Shown here: piece by piece, positions 3,160 through 62,725 of the stretch | How positions within the stretch are numbered: position 1 is the stretch's first letter | How the letters are laid out: each line of letters opens with the position of its first letter | NCBI GenBank assembly: GCA_032595685.2 | Contig: CP159373.1 | Span: forward strand, 1,757,001 to 1,821,000 | Source: Candidatus Electrothrix aestuarii | Lineage (GTDB): Bacteria; Desulfobacterota; Desulfobulbia; Desulfobulbales; Desulfobulbaceae | DNA: 64,000 nucleotides | Direction: 5' to 3' | Notes under the pieces: model-generated | The model's input: only the letters and a program-made list of their open reading frames with translations | What the model was told of the DNA's origin: nothing | The model's database searches: none | Made by a program: the position numbers and the translations under genes

Positions 3160-6100
3160 ATGCCCCGTATTTCCGTTGTTATCCCCTGTTATAATCAGGG
3201 GATCTTTGTTGATGAAGCTATCAATTCCGTTCTCGTCCAGACCTGGCAGGATTTTGAAATCATCGTGGTCAACGATGGTTCAACTGACTCCTTTACCGAC
3301 AGCCATCTCAGGAAGCTGGATTTCCCCAAGACCCGGGTTCTCCACACAACAAATCAGGGCTTAGCCTCTGCCAGAAATAATGGTATCCGGGAGGCCCAAG
3401 GCGAGTACATCCTACCTCTGGATGCGGATGATCGGATCGGCCCAACCTACCTGGAGCAGGCCATACGTTTGCTGGATAACGATCCAGAGTTGGGAATAGT
3501 CTATTGCAAGGCGCAACTTTTCGGTGATGTTGCGACCGAGTGGCTACTGCCGGAGTTCTCCCTGCAACGAATTTTGTTGGATAACATCATCTTCTGCACC
3601 GCCTTTTTCCGAAAGAGCGACTGGGAGACCGCAGGCGGTTTTGATTCAGCCATGATCTATGGCTGGGAAGATTACGATTTCTGGCTTTCCTTACTGGAAA
3701 TGGGACGCAAGGTTGTCCAGATCCAGGACATCCTTTTTTACTACCGGGTTGCTGCGGATTCAATGGTCCGGGCCCGACCACGGCAGCATAAGGTGGAGAG
3801 TTTTGCCCGCATCTTCCGAAAACACCAAGATCTTTACGCCCAATATATAGAAGTCTGGGTTGATAAGCTGTTGGACGTCACTGAACCTTATCATCAGGCA
3901 GCCCTTTTCCCGGAAGGCAGTAAGGCCGAAAAGCATCCTGATTTGGTCCGTAAAATAGACCCTGGCATCCGTCGCTTGCAATTCACGCTCACTCCGGAGC
4001 AGGGACGTTCATTTATTTTCCGACCAGCTGATCGCCAGGTTATTCTTCGCATTCAGAGAATTTCTTTGGAAGGATCAGATGACAACGAGAACCCGGTTAC
4101 CTATTCCCATACGGCGGATTTCATCCAAGACGATGTTTTCTTTTTTTGCTCTTCAGTCCCCTCATTGCAGCTTCACCTTCCTGAGCATGATAGAGCGAAA
4201 GACTCGTATTCTCTCATTATAGAAATTGAATATCTGGCCTTTGGTCAGGACTGCCTTCCTCTCCTCGTCAACCTGTTAAAAGACCAGATGACCAAGCCTG
4301 ATGAATCTCTTAGTCCCCCTGTTTCTCCTGCTCAATCAGTATGTTGGTCATTTAGGGTAAAATGGTTCATAAAAGCAATTTCCTATCGCTTAATCTCGGC
4401 TCGTCGTTTTCATTATCAAAAAATAGAGCAAAGTGGTCTCTTTGATAACGAATTTTACTTGAATGGAGATCCAGAACTTGCCCTGCTAGGACTTGATCCT
4501 TTGCTGCATTATCTTGAAAATGGAGCAAAGGAACGGAGAAAGCCTAATCCCCTTTTTGACGTAGCATGGTATTACCATGAGTATAAATTAACAGCAGAAC
4601 AAGACCCGCTACTTCATTATATTGAACAGGGCTGGAAGCAGGGTAATAAACCCCATCCCCTCTTTTTTACCTCCTATTACGCCGAGAAATACCCAGAAAG
4701 TATTGCTGAAAACCAGACGCCCCTTGCCCATTATCTGAAGTTGGAGAACAGAATCTCCCAGAGCCCTATGCCCTTTTTTGATATGGGGTATTATTGTGAG
4801 CGCAATCCCACAATACGAAAAGGATGGACTTTCCCTCTTCTTCATTTTTGGCGATTTGGCAATGAGGAAGAGCAGCTGCCAACCCCCCTGTTCGATCCAG
4901 AGTTTTATCGGGAGACCTATCAGCTGGAGGAGCTTTCCCATGTGGAGCTCTTTCTTCATTATGTAGAGAAAGGTTGCCGGAAAAAATATCAGCCTTCTGC
5001 CCTATTTGATGCCGAATTTTATAGTGTCACCTATCCTGCATCTCAGAACTCCTTTCATCCCCTGGAATATTATCAGGAGCATGGCCTCACAGCTGGACAT
5101 TACCCATGTCGCGAGATCGCAGACTTACCGAAGAAACCGGTTATCAGCATCCTGGTCCCAGTCTTCAACACCGATGAGGGATTACTGCGCCGCTGTATTC
5201 ACTCGGTTTTGTATCAGGCATACCCCCATTGGGAGCTCTGCCTGGTGGACGACGGGAGTTCTGCTGAGCACATTCCTCCCCTTCTTAAAGAATATGCTGC
5301 CCGGGATAAGCGAATAAAGATCAGTCTGGAAAAAGAAAATGTTGGTATTTCCCTGGTCACGAATAAGGCTGCTCAACTGGCCAGCGGCGAATATTTTGCC
5401 TTCTTGGATCATGATGATGAGCTCACCCTAGATGCCTTATACCAAGTTGTTTTGGCAATTAATACCTATGATCCCGATGCCCTGTACAGCGATGAGGAAC
5501 TCATTGATTGGAGGGGACTACGCTGCACCAGGTTTTATAAGTCCGACTATAATCCTGAGTTATTGCTCTGCCATAATTATATCACCCATTTTTTTGTGAC
5601 CAGAAGCACACTGTTTCGGCAGGTGGGAGGCCTGTCAGCCGAGTGTACTGGTGCCCAGGATTATGATCTGGTCCTGAAAATCGCAGAGCAGAGTAAGCGG
5701 ATTCACCATATTCGTCGTTCGCTGTACCGATGGCGGGCCGCAGAGACTTCTACCAGTATTCATCATGACCAAAAGGATTATGCTGATGCAGCTGGCCTAA
5801 AAGCCTTGAGCAATGCTGTTGAACGGAGAGGCATGGAGGCCACGGTCCAGCGTGGTCTGTTGAATTTTTATTATCGCTTACAGCGCAAAGCAAAGGAGAC
5901 CTGTCAGGTTACGGCCTTGATCAGGGTTTCTGATAAGATGGAAACTCTGGGAGAGTGGTTGCAAGAGTTGCTCGCAAGGACTGCCTATCCCAATATTGAC
6001 TATATAATCCTGCATCGAAATTCAGTGGGGGACATCTCTGCTGAACTCCCGGAAGAGCTGAGAACCCTAGTTCGCTTTTATCAGCTGAAAGAGCAGGAAG

Positions 6101-6726
6101 GAGAGGCTGCGGCCTTGAACCGGCTTGCGGAACAGGTTATGGGTGAGCACCTTGTTTTTCTCCAACCGGGCATCTTGCCGCAGGAGAAAAACTGGGTAAA
6201 GACAATGCTCGCTTATTCGCAGGAAGAGGGCTGCGGGGTGGTCAGTGGAGTAGTTGCAGGGCCTGATGAAGAGATCAATAATCTGGCTTTGCCAGATCTC
6301 TCGGATAAGAGCTGCCAAGCCTTTCGTTCTCTGCTCACCGAAGGCTCAGTCCACCTTAACGGGATGCACTGCCCCCAAAATGTCCTTGCTTGCTCCTTTG
6401 ATTTCTGCATGATCGAGATCAAGTTGTTTCGGACTATGCAGGGTTTTGACGGAGAAAGCTTCCCTGAGTATCTCTACGATATTGATTTTTGCCTTCGTCT
6501 CAGAGAGGCCGGGAGAGAACATATTTTTACCCCCTTTTGCAAGGCCGTTATCACAGCATCGAAAGAGAGGTTTTCCTCGACAGAAGACTGGATTGATGAA
6601 AAGATATGTTTTCAGAAAAGGTGGAGAGCTGTCCTAGAGCACAACCCCTATTATAACGAAAACCGGTTGCTCACTGAACTTCAGGTTTCACGGGAAGAGT
6701 GGTTGCACTGGATTGCTGGGGGGTAG
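3160..6726 (+). CDS. Giant multi-module family 2 glycosyltransferase with internal tandem repeats
   Basis: This 1188-residue protein probably builds a surface polysaccharide or glycan. The N-terminal GT2 domain (about 4-220) starts with ISVVIPCYNQG and has the DADD metal and nucleotide motif. Residues of about 423-650 contain roughly six repeats of 35-40 residues, each built on (L)FD-x-x-YY/FY ... PL-x-HY/HF ... G ... P-x-P-L-F. A second GT2 domain begins near residue 658 (SILVPVFN) with DHDDE. The last 275 residues resemble a third GT2 domain without a clear DxD. The repeat type is known between GT domains in very large bacterial glycosyltransferases. No export signal is seen. It stands alone, with no polysaccharide operon adjacent. 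Acceptor and sugar cannot be inferred. Confidence 0.88.
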   Translation: MPRISVVIPCYNQGIFVDEAINSVLVQTWQDFEIIVVNDGSTDSFTDSHLRKLDFPKTRVLHTTNQGLASARNNGIREAQGEYILPLDADDRIGPTYLEQAIRLLDNDPELGIVYCKAQLFGDVATEWLLPEFSLQRILLDNIIFCTAFFRKSDWETAGGFDSAMIYGWEDYDFWLSLLEMGRKVVQIQDILFYYRVAADSMVRARPRQHKVESFARIFRKHQDLYAQYIEVWVDKLLDVTEPYHQAALFPEGSKAEKHPDLVRKIDPGIRRLQFTLTPEQGRSFIFRPADRQVILRIQRISLEGSDDNENPVTYSHTADFIQDDVFFFCSSVPSLQLHLPEHDRAKDSYSLIIEIEYLAFGQDCLPLLVNLLKDQMTKPDESLSPPVSPAQSVCWSFRVKWFIKAISYRLISARRFHYQKIEQSGLFDNEFYLNGDPELALLGLDPLLHYLENGAKERRKPNPLFDVAWYYHEYKLTAEQDPLLHYIEQGWKQGNKPHPLFFTSYYAEKYPESIAENQTPLAHYLKLENRISQSPMPFFDMGYYCERNPTIRKGWTFPLLHFWRFGNEEEQLPTPLFDPEFYRETYQLEELSHVELFLHYVEKGCRKKYQPSALFDAEFYSVTYPASQNSFHPLEYYQEHGLTAGHYPCREIADLPKKPVISILVPVFNTDEGLLRRCIHSVLYQAYPHWELCLVDDGSSAEHIPPLLKEYAARDKRIKISLEKENVGISLVTNKAAQLASGEYFAFLDHDDELTLDALYQVVLAINTYDPDALYSDEELIDWRGLRCTRFYKSDYNPELLLCHNYITHFFVTRSTLFRQVGGLSAECTGAQDYDLVLKIAEQSKRIHHIRRSLYRWRAAETSTSIHHDQKDYADAAGLKALSNAVERRGMEATVQRGLLNFYYRLQRKAKETCQVTALIRVSDKMETLGEWLQELLARTAYPNIDYIILHRNSVGDISAELPEELRTLVRFYQLKEQEGEAAALNRLAEQVMGEHLVFLQPGILPQEKNWVKTMLAYSQEEGCGVVSGVVAGPDEEINNLALPDLSDKSCQAFRSLLTEGSVHLNGMHCPQNVLACSFDFCMIEIKLFRTMQGFDGESFPEYLYDIDFCLRLREAGREHIFTPFCKAVITASKERFSSTEDWIDEKICFQKRWRAVLEHNPYYNENRLLTELQVSREEWLHWIAGG

Positions 6727-6963: not shown

Positions 6964-7075
6964 ATGCGATTGCGGTATGAAGGACCAGGGGAAAACCTTG
7001 GGCTACGGACAATTGCGGCATAAATCCCCAGGGTTAAAACCCTGGGCTATTTTCGTTCGTCCCTCCGGGACGGGT
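6911..7075. repeat. REP-type palindromic repeats on one side of the RAYT gene
   Basis: Two palindromic modules are visible. One at 6911-6960 contains GCGTCCCGGAGGGAC and CCCCGTGATTTATCGCGGGG. The other, at 7025-7075, contains CCCAGGGTTAAAACCCTGGG followed by CGTCCCTCCGGGACG. Near-identical modules lie on the other side of the transposase gene, which is the arrangement expected of REP sequences mobilised by a REP-associated tyrosine transposase. Confidence 0.75.
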
Positions 7076-7527
7076 TATCCGAATACATACCGTTCATCGT
7101 ATTCAGTCTGATGTTTTTTCAGCAACAACAGGAACTCCTCTTCAAAGGAACTGAAACGGTGGTGTTCCTGCTGATTGTCGATATAGGCGATGATTCGTTC
7201 AAGCTGCGAAACACTGACACTGAATCCGCCATAGCCTTCCTGCCAGGAAAAATGTTGGTGTTGCGGAAAGGTCTCGTGAATCCATTTTGAGGCGTTGCCC
7301 TTGATCAGCTGGACCGCCTGTGCCACGGACAGGGTTGACGGAAGGGAGACAAGCTGGTGAATATGATCTTCCGTGCCGCCGATCCGCAACGAGGCTATCT
7401 TATGTTTCCGGGCTGTTCCGCTCATATATTTGTGCAGGCGTTGGCGGATGTCCGCTGTGATCCAGGGTTCCCGGTTTTTGGTGCTGAACACGTAATGGAT
7501 GTGGCAACTGATGTATGAATGCGACAT
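7075..7527 (-). CDS. REP-associated tyrosine transposase (IS200/IS605-like, Y1_Tnp)
   Basis: A Y1-type single-strand transposase of 150 residues. Visible family features are the HUH metal motif, seen as EDHIHQLV; a catalytic tyrosine in the C-terminal helix around QLERIIAYIDNQQEHH; and the YHVVF-like start, here CHIHYVFSTKNREPWI. The frame stays open for 70 codons upstream, but that part is translated REP DNA. The ATG at 7527, preceded by GGAG, begins MSHSYISC, as expected for the family. RAYT proteins are thought to move REP palindromes. Both flanks carry such palindromes, and degenerate relatives occur near 41.0 and 55.0 kb. The gene looks intact. Confidence 0.9.
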   Translation of the reverse strand: MSHSYISCHIHYVFSTKNREPWITADIRQRLHKYMSGTARKHKIASLRIGGTEDHIHQLVSLPSTLSVAQAVQLIKGNASKWIHETFPQHQHFSWQEGYGGFSVSVSQLERIIAYIDNQQEHHRFSSFEEEFLLLLKKHQTEYDERYVFG

Positions 7528-7563
7528 GGCGTGCTCCGTTTTTTGTTTGATGTCCCAAGAATA

Positions 7564-7757
7564 CCCAGGGTTAAAACCCCGGGCTATTTCCGTTCGTCCC
7601 TCCGGGACGGGTTCAACCCCCGGCGGCACAGCGTCCCGTAGGGACTGCCGGTAATAGCCCCGTGATTTATCGCGGGGAATAGGTGTGATTGCGGCCAGTC
7701 CAGAATCCCCAGGGTTAAAACCCTGGGCTATTTTCATTCGTCCCTACAGGACGGGTT
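7564..7757. repeat. REP-type palindromic repeats on the other side of the RAYT gene
   Basis: Three modules: 7564-7612 (CCCAGGGTTAAAACCCCGGG then CGTCCCTCCGGGACG), 7630-7680 (GCGTCCCGTAGGGAC then CCCCGTGATTTATCGCGGGG) and 7706-7757 (same as the first, with CCCTACAGGACG). They match the modules at 6911-7075 almost base for base, so the transposase gene sits inside a set of its likely substrate repeats. Confidence 0.75.
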
Positions 7758-7847: not shown

Positions 7848-13667
<5,820 letters not shown>

Positions 13668-41956: not shown

Positions 41957-42058
41957 TGCTCATACCTCTCGTATGACGAGGCTCATACACTCCGTATGAC
42001 GGGAGTCATACCAGTCTTATGACGAGGGTCATACCAACCGTATGACGGGAGTCATGTT
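41957..42058. repeat. Tandem repeat array B, 23-bp period, upstream of an HU-like gene
   Basis: Units start at 41971, 41994, 42017 and 42040 with consensus GTATGACGGGAGTCATACC plus AACC, and a partial unit precedes them. Each unit contains the dyad GTATGAC-GGGA-GTCATAC with a 5-base linker to the next. There are no spacers. The array ends 115 bp before the ATG of the small HU-like gene at 42173. It shares its period, but not its sequence, with arrays A and C. The rest of the 343-bp gap shows nothing else recognisable. Confidence 0.9.
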
Positions 42059-42172
42059 TCCAGATCAATTTTCCCCGGAAAGAATGATTGACAGAACCGG
42101 ACTGACTTTTTAGGATGAGCTATCACAGCTCTTCCCGGTATTCTCAACCCCTTATCCTACAAGGAGGCAGTC

Positions 42173-42604
42173 ATGAGTATTCAATGCAAGCCGGTCCCTA
42201 ACGCCCTCACCACACCCTCAACCTATATCCTCCGCTTTGTGCCCCGCGATACGGCGGACGAACAGAACCTTGCCGCAGATATCCATCGCTATCAGCCCAA
42301 CTTTAGCCCGGAAGCCGTGGAGACTATCCTCCAGGCAGAGAACGAGACCCTGCGCATTCAGGCCCTTCAGGACGCGCGTCAGCATCTGCTCCTCTTCAGC
42401 CTCCTGGATATGCACGAAGGTGGGCAGACAGGCCCGGCAGTGAGCGTCAGCGCTGAAGGAGACCAGACCCTGCAGGGCTTCAGGGGCTCGGCAGTCAGCA
42501 GCCTGACAGTCCCGGTCAATGACTATGCGAGCCTCAAGGAGCTGATCCGCAACAGCTACGGCGGCAGGTTGGTGGATGTGCTGGAAGTGAAAGTCGACTC
42601 CTGA
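42173..42604 (+). CDS. Small HU/IHF-like domain protein of unknown function
   Basis: A 143-residue protein behind an AAGGAGG site. Its N-terminal half (MSIQCKPVPN, then LAADIHRYQPNFSPEAVETIL) lines up with the N-terminus of the larger HU-like protein at 52.7-53.7 kb (MPIQYKIIQN, then LAKQIHLHNPTIPIDTAKAVL). Both resemble the diverged HU-like DNA-binding domain first defined in Bacteroidetes proteins. Its C-terminal half (TLQGFRGSAVSSLTVPVNDY, then GGRLVDVLEV) recurs in the truncated copy at 62.4 kb. It lacks the DUF4469-like part. Array B lies just upstream and could be its binding site. The next gene starts within about 40 bases. Confidence 0.6.
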   Translation: MSIQCKPVPNALTTPSTYILRFVPRDTADEQNLAADIHRYQPNFSPEAVETILQAENETLRIQALQDARQHLLLFSLLDMHEGGQTGPAVSVSAEGDQTLQGFRGSAVSSLTVPVNDYASLKELIRNSYGGRLVDVLEVKVDS

Positions 42605-52665: not shown

Positions 52666-53715
52666 CTACTCGCCTCCGACCATTGAAAGATCACAAACCT
52701 CCAGCATGTATCGCCCATAGGAAAGCAGGCTTGCCACGAACAGATCATAGGAGCCGCTGTCCATAAAACTCACCGTCACATCCGCATCAAGACCGGTCAG
52801 CACCATATCGCCCCCTGCCGCAGGAACGATCACCTCCGGGCCGAGCGATCCTTTCAGGGGGCCAACCGCAAGGGTGATCTGATCATCTGCCCTGTAAATC
52901 GCCTCAAACCTGCACATCACCTGCTCCCCGGTATAGCTGCTCACCTTCAGCGGCCCATCCGTATCATCTCCAACAACAAATAACTTGGGCTGTGCCGCCG
53001 TGACCACGTTGGTGGACCGCAGGTGGTTGGCATATTCACCTGTGCGCAGTTGTCCATTCTTGCTGTATCGCGACCGCACCGCAATGGTCTTCTCAACATT
53101 CGGGGGAGTTGCCTGTACTGCGCCGAAATCAGGGGTAATGATGATTTTTGAGGGATTGTTGAGGCTGATCTTCTCCTGCTGCACGATGTGGCCGTCAGCA
53201 TCGGTCAGGAACACGCCCTGCGTCGGGTCTGCTTCGTCAAAGCCGATATTGGAGCCGTCCAGACAGAACCCGTAGTCCGCGCGAATCCAGTTCTGAAGCT
53301 TAGTATTTGTGTCATACGCCCCGCCGATATCAGGAGACTTTTTTGAATACGGAAGCCGCTCGTATTTCGCCTGCTGTGCTACGTCCTGCTTCAGTACCAC
53401 GGAAGGCCTGGCTTTAACGTCAACACAGTCGGGCGGCAGGTCGTCAGTGGGCAGATCCAGGCGAGCAGGCAGGGTGGTGACAAAAGAGACAAACCCGGAC
53501 AGATTGATGGTGTTGCCGTCAGCAAGCTGGCGGATCACCTCCTCCCTGAATGCCTCAAGAACCGCTTTGGCAGTATCTATCGGGATGGTCGGGTTATGCA
53601 GATGGATTTGCTTTGCCAGAGCATCATAGTCCAGGGTTTTGCGGGCAATCGGTCGTGCAGTGGATGACGGAGGATTTGTCAGGTAGTTTTGGATGATCTT
53701 GTATTGAATCGGCAT
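52666..53715 (-). CDS. HU-like DNA-binding domain protein with DUF4469-like C-terminal domain
   Basis: A 349-residue protein behind an AAGGAG site. Residues 1-125 form a diverged HU/IHF-like domain (YDALAKQIHLHNPTIPIDTA, LADGNTINLSGFVSFV). The middle and C-terminal parts hold beta-rich Ig-like modules; IAVRSRYSKNGQLRTGEYANHL matches the DUF4469 pattern seen after HU-like domains in Bacteroidetes and some Desulfobacterota proteins. Function is unknown; DNA binding is inferred. Array C (53.84-53.98 kb) lies about 130-260 bp upstream of the start. It is convergent with the gene after dnaE. Confidence 0.7.
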   Translation of the reverse strand: MPIQYKIIQNYLTNPPSSTARPIARKTLDYDALAKQIHLHNPTIPIDTAKAVLEAFREEVIRQLADGNTINLSGFVSFVTTLPARLDLPTDDLPPDCVDVKARPSVVLKQDVAQQAKYERLPYSKKSPDIGGAYDTNTKLQNWIRADYGFCLDGSNIGFDEADPTQGVFLTDADGHIVQQEKISLNNPSKIIITPDFGAVQATPPNVEKTIAVRSRYSKNGQLRTGEYANHLRSTNVVTAAQPKLFVVGDDTDGPLKVSSYTGEQVMCRFEAIYRADDQITLAVGPLKGSLGPEVIVPAAGGDMVLTGLDADVTVSFMDSGSYDLFVASLLSYGRYMLEVCDLSMVGGE

Positions 53716-62377: not shown

Positions 62378-62542
62378 ATCATCTTGACTGCGAACGGGCC
62401 GCTGACCCTGGTCGGTTTTGCCGGTTCTGCTTTGAGTAGCCTGGACCTGACCGTGAATGACTTTGACGAGCTGCGGGATATGATCCGTAATGACTACTCC
62501 GGCAGGTTGGTGGATGTGTTGTATGTGGAATCAGGGACCTGA
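62378..62542 (+). pseudogene. Truncated copy of the small HU-like family protein (C-terminal part only)
   Basis: The frame encodes TLVGFAGSALSSLDLTVNDF followed by RNDYSGRLVDVLYVESGT and a stop. It aligns with the C-terminus of the 42.2-kb protein (TLQGFRGSAVSSLTVPVNDY, RNSYGGRLVDVLEVKVDS). An in-frame TAG at 62375 and the lack of a start codon show that the N-terminal half is gone. After the TGA the same frame continues open through tandem array D. Confidence 0.8.
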
Positions 62543-62563: not shown

Positions 62564-62725
62564 AAGGTCAGTAGGGATCTTGTTATGAAGGTCAGTACTG
62601 ACCTTGACCTGAAGGTAAGCGGGGATTTTTACCCCAAGGTAGGTAGGGATCTTTACCATAAGGTCAGTAGGGACTTTGATACGAAGATCAGTACTGACCT
62701 CTGGTTTAAGGTCAACGGTGATGCT
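62564..62725 (+). repeat. Tandem repeat array D, 24-bp period, downstream of the HU-like remnant
   Basis: Units start at 62564, 62588, 62612, 62636, 62660, 62684 and 62708 (the last partial), consensus AAGGTCAGTAGGGATCTT plus six bases. Some units are an 18-base perfect palindrome (AAGGTCAGTACTGACCTT). Because 24 is a multiple of three, the frame stays open and reads as an 8-residue repeat, KVSRDLxx. A coding role is uncertain. The array begins 22 bp after the stop of the truncated HU-like gene. Confidence 0.9.

Follow-up and report, generated by a model that had tools for sequence, protein, structure and literature searches.

The window, the whole 64,000-nucleotide stretch analysed here, corresponds to positions 1757001–1821000 of the own genome (G000), a 5.1-Mb single contig. 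It holds three members or remnants of a family of HU-like proteins, each adjoined by a tandem array with a period of 23 or 24 bp, and a fourth array that stands without a family gene. By window position, the features are:

7884..8014, no strand assigned: fourth 23-bp array, gene-less, related to the motif of the 52.7-kb module
41957..42055, no strand assigned: array B, ∼4.3 dyad units of 23 bp with arms GTATGAC / GTCATAC, upstream of the 42.2-kb gene
42088..42116, + strand: promoter-like −35 TTGACA and −10-like TAGGAT (the −10 picked by eye), between array B and the 42.2-kb gene
42173..42604, + strand: 42.2-kb gene, encoding a shortened family member of 143 aa
42604..44061, + strand: gene for a TPR protein, the ORF start overlapping the stop of the 42.2-kb gene
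52666..53715, − strand: 52.7-kb gene, encoding a full-length family member of 349 aa
53868..53976, no strand assigned: array (CATGCTCGGA...), ∼4.7 units of 23 bp, upstream of the 52.7-kb gene
62384..62542, + strand: 62.4-kb ORF, a gene remnant encoding a C-terminal fragment (52 aa) of a family member
62564..62703, no strand assigned: 24-bp dyad array (AAGGTCAGTACNGACCTT), ∼5.8 units, directly 3′ of the 62.4-kb remnant

The preliminary description of this DNA had reported a 23-bp dyad array ahead of the 42.2-kb gene, a second 23-bp array upstream of the 52.7-kb gene, and a 24-bp array directly downstream of a truncated member at 62.4 kb, and all three stand. A gap of 117 bp separates the end of array B from the ATG at 42173, and the 62.4-kb ORF shares 55% identity with the family over 51 aa. 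The dyad scores (z) of the three arrays are 2.8, 2.1, and 3.7, respectively. The strict pattern GTATGACN4GTCATAC does not occur in the genome outside array B, which is a weak test because only one array B unit meets it. The gene-less array at 7884–8014 has a dyad z of only 0.7, and a family search of the window found no family gene beside it. Its similarity is 0.74 to the 52.7-kb module (the best of the modules compared, the next reaching 0.70) and 0.81–0.87 to three other gene-less arrays described below. This array adjoins the 3′ end of a large TIR/TPR-like ORF (8006–12391, − strand), and a REP-associated-transposase-like ORF lies nearby at 7075–7737 (both named by eye).

The 52.7-kb protein is of the BVU_2165 type (HU plus DUF4469) of the HU superfamily. 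It comprises an HU domain, a DUF4469 Ig-like domain, and a C-terminal domain, in this order. Its matches to PF18291 (HU-type, N-terminal; 32.1 bits) and DUF4469 (PF14734; 33.6 bits) exceed the respective Pfam cut-offs of 26.2 and 22.6 bits, and DUF4469 matches 46 of 73 aligned members at E ≤ 0.01. An AlphaFold (AF2) model of the full-length paralogue G000:2277310, built from a 73-row alignment, has a mean pLDDT of 93.5 and a pTM of 0.65. In this model, HU and IHF chains match over residues ∼25–121 (HU chains over ∼25–117; Z 8.8–10.1 for the HU domain) and Ig-like folds over residues ∼128–237. Among solved structures, the best match to both domains is the Bacteroides vulgatus protein BVU_2165 (PDB 4fmr; Foldseek E 4.7e-12, Z 12.4, profile E 9e-7); the rmsd of the 4fmr alignments is large (about 19), presumably because the domain orientation differs. 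The cable-bacterial members resemble BVU_2165-type proteins (Pfam HU-DNA_bdg/HU-HIG plus DUF4469) in their HU and Ig-like architecture, but they carry an extra C-terminal domain of roughly 115 aa, for which Foldseek returned no PDB match at E ≤ 0.001.

The 42.2-kb protein had been called a diverged HU-like protein. Its N-terminus indeed aligns with that of the 52.7-kb protein (33% over 61 aa, E 0.006), but it is not merely diverged. In the alignment it corresponds to the two ends of an HU-like protein of ∼357 aa, ∼57 residues at the N-terminus and ∼86 at the C-terminus, and lacks the ∼210 residues in between, including half of the HU domain. No HU or DUF4469 Pfam match appears up to E 1; the sole match, at E 0.26, is unrelated. 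Judged by its alignment, the 42.2-kb protein represents a derived, fragmentary member of the BVU_2165-type family, and it is probably unable to bind DNA.

About 20 family members and remnants are present in the own genome. The family occurs in 10 of 57 relatives' genomes searched and in two of 33 genera. All 10 are cable bacteria, comprising seven of the eight genomes of the window's genus and three genomes of one other genus. These ten genomes contain 2–33 family matches each, fragments included, with up to some 30 copies per cable-bacterium genome. A scan of named genomes yielded 36 loci, nearly all from cable bacteria or Desulfobulbaceae. A full module with its array also lies on a contig (L128) of a MAG labelled Candidatus Fermentibacteraceae, which may be a transfer or a misbinned cable-bacterial contig. 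In an even sample of the phylum, DUF4469 was found in three of 395 genomes, two of the three falling below the family cut-off. PF18291 matched in 378 of the 395 and is useless as a family probe because HU-sized proteins match it nearly everywhere.

The pairing of this HU-like family with 23-bp arrays is real and general. We scored 49 lags (12–60) upstream of 107 unique cable-bacterial members, each with at least 250 bp of upstream DNA, and defined a strong array as a lag-23 score of ≥40. Eighty of the 107 members reach this score, as do 62 of 79 clusters formed at 80% identity, and the best lag is 23 or 46 in 87 of the 107. Allowing slipped periods as well (22–24, 45–48) gives 90 of 107 members and 68 of 79 clusters; of these slipped periods, the random-window background covers lags 22–24. 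Among 880 random 450-bp windows of the own genome, the threshold was reached once at lag 23, never at lag 22, and once at lag 24; lag 21 was commoner (4 of 880). Shuffled upstream regions never reached it (0 of 2140), and when the 450 bp behind these 107 genes are scored, the 12 most frequent best lags do not include 23. We therefore reject chance as the source of the pairing. The preliminary description had judged the co-occurrences in the window too many for chance, and its central proposal, the association of the family with arrays, is borne out by homologues that are strongly enriched for nearby 23-bp arrays, by the rarity of such arrays in random windows of the genome, and by their recurrence in a second phylum.

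In the own genome, 16 members keep their start, and for 15 of them Tandem Repeats Finder places an array of period 23 or 46 bp within a few hundred bases before the gene; the exception is 3796464. Several members scored as array-less have indel-bearing arrays when inspected by eye, and others have none. Full-length members without a detectable array include L003 and its orthologue L148, L075, L109, L181, L184, and L191. For two sets of control loci, we reject the explanation that arrays are a general property of HU genes. HU-sized genes at 20 Desulfobacterota loci, the best 20 of the PF18291 search and judged to be ordinary HU/IHF by length, have no array (0/20), nor do three Bacteroidota HU genes beside amidase or carboxypeptidase (wall-hydrolase) genes (0/3).

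Cable-bacterial modules are laid out as an array, a gap of ∼39 bp, a TTGACA box, a ribosome-site-like stretch, and the gene. The arrays contain a median of 5.5 copies (range 2.6–11.2) and, at the median, stop 127 bp short of the ATG and 39 bp short of the −35 box; TTGACA at −80 to −92 from the ATG is common to 92 of the 107 members. The unit is a dyad of two 8-bp arms around a variable 5-bp centre. Dyad symmetry exceeds z = 2 in 59 of the 77 cable-bacterial arrays scored and is at or below this value in 18. In an arm profile of 40 non-redundant dyad-aligned arrays, themselves picked for z > 2, information and mirror match both peak in the two 8-bp arms. A/T is favoured at arm positions 4 (84%) and 8 (77%), and G/C at positions 2, 3, 6, 7, and 9 (62–76%). 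Repeat sequences differ between paralogues; because the information lies in two arms with position preferences, the paralogues' arrays have a common frame and no common sequence. The earlier proposal that the dyads sit roughly on one face of the DNA is doubtful. A 23-bp unit makes 2.19 turns at 10.5 bp per turn, a rotation of about 69 degrees per unit, so one-face placement would be plausible only if the DNA were underwound.

Close homologues (HU identity >0.8) have similar array sequences; once HU identity falls below ∼0.7, the arrays resemble each other hardly more than those of the most distant members do. Between related arrays, the two arms tend to change jointly. Two-arm changes were symmetric in 15 cases and other in 24 (the pairs being non-independent), compared with 0–1 symmetric and 53–63 other in controls with the mirror slid by 1–3 bp. 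HU-domain identity is a slightly poorer predictor of array similarity than the other domains (rank correlations of 0.08 versus 0.14 and 0.12), and neither the domain-wise correlation nor a column scan gave a clear specificity region. The arrays of L131 and L173 resemble those of the 69484 group, yet their HU domains are only 35–38% identical to that group.

The pairing recurs in a second phylum. Searches from the 4fmr sequence and its matches identified nine relatives in Bacteroidota, recognised by DUF4469-type architecture or by similarity: six from Parabacteroides distasonis and three from human-gut scaffolds deposited as phage. The P. distasonis records are labelled plasmids; one of them carries rpoB, tuf, and ribosomal genes. 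All nine relatives have an array, as do most cable-bacterial members, but here it lies downstream of the gene rather than upstream, with a period of 23 in eight and 24 in L218. Relative to the last base of the stop codon, eight of the nine arrays start somewhere from 4 bp upstream to 43 bp downstream. The ninth (L222) lies 498 bp from the stop and was found only by a whole-locus scan, and the L221 array barely reaches a score of 40. Symmetry scores cover the six P. distasonis arrays: four are dyadic (z 2.7–4.1), and L218 and L220 show no significant dyad. In the Bacteroidota background, lag 23 was reached in 0 of 222 windows and lag 24 in 1 of 222. The sole sliding lag-23 match in 100 kb of background lies upstream of another HU-HIG gene. 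The gene that follows this array (L225:26497–26600) encodes a short HU-HIG protein of 161 aa that has no match to DUF4469, indicating that the pairing may reach beyond the DUF4469 type. Separately, P. distasonis HU proteins of two subfamilies (L217–L220 and L225:26655–27140) have a common, tag-like C-terminal tail, GGGDSESP(D/G)EI.

Copies of one motif also occur in trans. A profile scan of sampled own-genome stretches and the window had found few sites outside arrays, and this near-absence of trans sites was overturned for the 52.7-kb motif by a whole-genome pattern search. The motif forms gene-less arrays at G000:1515040, 1364953, and 817478 (a control pattern gave 0 matches), none with a family remnant nearby at E ≤ 1. 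Together with the more diverged array at 7884–8014, there are four such arrays, each lying just behind the 3′ end of another ORF. Inspection by eye shows two of them to be chimeric. The array at G000:1515040–1515200 (L251 2541–2700) consists of 52.7-kb-type units followed by a 42-kb-type unit in the same 23-bp register with traces of the 42-kb promoter flank, and the 817478 array continues into 1319464/5064132-type units. The background sample yielded one more gene-less 23-bp array (G000:2412807; L037 12807–12924); its best module match is L172, from another species (0.80).

We conjecture, at a probability of about 60%, that in each intact module the HU-type protein and the adjoining 23-bp dyad array form a self-addressed pair, in which the array would be coated by protein dimers and would serve both as an anchoring site and to tune the protein's own promoter. 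The private sequences, the dyads, and the joint change of the two arms lend indirect support to the idea that each protein binds its own array. A dimer would sit on each 23-bp unit, with its two 8-bp arms and 5-bp centre, and neighbouring dimers would pack along the array, coating it cooperatively. The coated array would then constitute a nucleoprotein structure, present at a single site of the chromosome or at a few. In cable bacteria, coating may additionally tune the protein's own expression, because the array ends ∼39 bp upstream of the −35 box. Promoter control cannot be the whole job, however, because Bacteroidota arrays follow the gene and gene-less copies exist. The autoregulation put forward in the preliminary description is consistent with arrays close to the promoter, as in cable bacteria, and does not suit arrays that follow the gene, as in Bacteroidota. 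The most likely common function would be that of a fixed chromosomal site for anchoring or organisation, and paralogues may diversify via joint change of protein and array. Counting against the conjecture are the full-length members that lack an array, the arrays that persist beside broken genes, the arrays with no significant dyad, and the failure of HU-domain identity to predict array similarity better than the other domains do. The preliminary description had also suggested partition of a small element, for which we recognised neither a partition gene nor a small replicon. It is tempting to extend the conjecture to a chromosome-labelling system in at least two phyla, in which HU-Ig paralogues would read private 23-bp dyad codes, placed by the gene and at some further places, as independent and rapidly re-coded addresses, with ∼30 codes per genome at most (in cable bacteria). 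This is possible, but we lean against it.

Several other explanations merit consideration. An ordinary autoregulated transcription factor would likewise have a repeat array at its own promoter, and the position of the cable-bacterial arrays just upstream of the TTGACA box makes them candidate operators; the few sites outside arrays in the profile scan also fit. Nonetheless, array position differs among relatives. The downstream arrays of all nine Bacteroidota relatives and the 3′-located gene-less arrays of the 52.7-kb motif both argue against a pure operator, and we consider it unlikely that the array is only this. A most improbable alternative is that the palindromes act in RNA, as hairpins, terminators, or 3′-UTR elements. 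The Bacteroidota arrays that begin close to the stop codon would suit such a role, but the cable-bacterial arrays lie upstream of a promoter-like box, and their non-complementary arm pairs are not enriched in G-T (5 of 40, with a fraction of 0.17 expected if even).

Alternatively, array and gene might spread and decay together as a selfish or conflict module, an accessory unit that perhaps senses or pre-empts invading DNA, as Burroughs and colleagues reportedly proposed in 2017 for HU expansions in Bacteroidetes. The 2–33 matches per genome, fragments included, and the many remnants are in keeping with this, as are the three Bacteroidota relatives from scaffolds deposited as phage. The sister genome G007 has modules absent from G000, and vice versa, these differences falling where other content has been replaced too. 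Around 11 own-genome modules, the ORFs up to 2.6 kb away include no constant downstream partner by eye, and a TPR-type partner like that of the 42.2-kb gene is seen at none of the other 10. On the other side, modules shared by G000 and G007 are syntenic, with no clean transposition seen. Moreover, searches of phage and plasmid collections (at E 0.01) and of viral contigs (reaching close relatives only) found no relative of the cable-bacterial protein, and we reject a phage or plasmid origin for it. Viral-contig scans with the 4fmr stretch and four Bacteroidota proteins, again reaching close relatives only, also found none. A tandem 42-kb pattern matched no viral contig, which means nothing because this probe misses even its own array (0 of 250 collected loci). 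On balance, we regard a selfish module as quite unlikely. It is very unlikely that the arrays are minisatellites or REP-like DNA lying beside the genes by happenstance, with no functional tie to the protein. Gene-less arrays, two of them chimeric, do occur, and similarity between sister species drops at the outer edge of the array in five of seven pairs. However, the enrichment is strong and specific, sparing the HU-sized and wall-hydrolase-linked controls; the pairing recurs in another phylum on the other side of the gene; and the two arms change together.

The self-addressed pair that we favour has partial parallels among known systems. In ParR/parC, TubR/tubC, and related centromere-binding systems, a DNA-binding protein is likewise encoded beside a tandem array that presumably doubles as its operator, but those repeats are shorter than the 23-bp dyads. 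The modules described here are chromosomal, use the HU fold, and exist as many diverged copies with differing sequences, and no motor or filament gene was recognised by eye beside 11 of them. MatP/matS, Noc/NBS, and ParB/parS also mark chromosomal places with a sequence-specific protein, as is predicted here. In these systems one protein serves many dispersed sites, whereas the present modules would involve many proteins, each with one to a few tandem arrays. The HU/IHF nucleoid proteins share the fold of the N-terminal domain, but the HU-sized genes of the 20 Desulfobacterota loci lack such an array.

The sequence preference for which HU-type proteins are mainly known is low or fixed. If the paralogues have their own recognition codes, they would constitute a natural experiment on how HU-fold proteins gain and alter specificity and might supply orthogonal protein-DNA pairs. 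The BVU_2165/DUF4469 family, which combines a solved structure with a 'domain of unknown function', gains a concrete, testable candidate DNA target, and cable bacteria gain a lineage-expanded chromosome feature to explain. The protein family is already known; we found no account of its array pairing, and no mention of DUF4469, in the open-access literature searched. That most members lie beside an array whose repeat differs from those of the others suggests an undescribed system, in which proteins are matched to private DNA addresses. A search of three cable-bacterium genome papers (PMC10926707, PMC10580974, and PMC10030654) found no mention of DNA-binding, and in one or two of them none of DUF4469, the HU family, paralog, or nucleoid. 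Cable bacteria are described as currently unculturable in the abstract of PMC10926707.

Among truncated members, seven of nine have a surviving array (at a score of 38). For example, a 54-aa remnant at 4486542 accompanies an array at G000:4486170–4486340 (L064 4171–4341) of 7.4 copies that are 93% identical. Similarly, L051 and L061 contain broken genes or remnants with well-preserved arrays. In L051, an insertion of ∼1.3 kb (5091–6382) breaks a G000 family gene that is intact in the sister genome (L153 1238–1242), and its flanks overlap by 5 bp, as expected of an insertion sequence.
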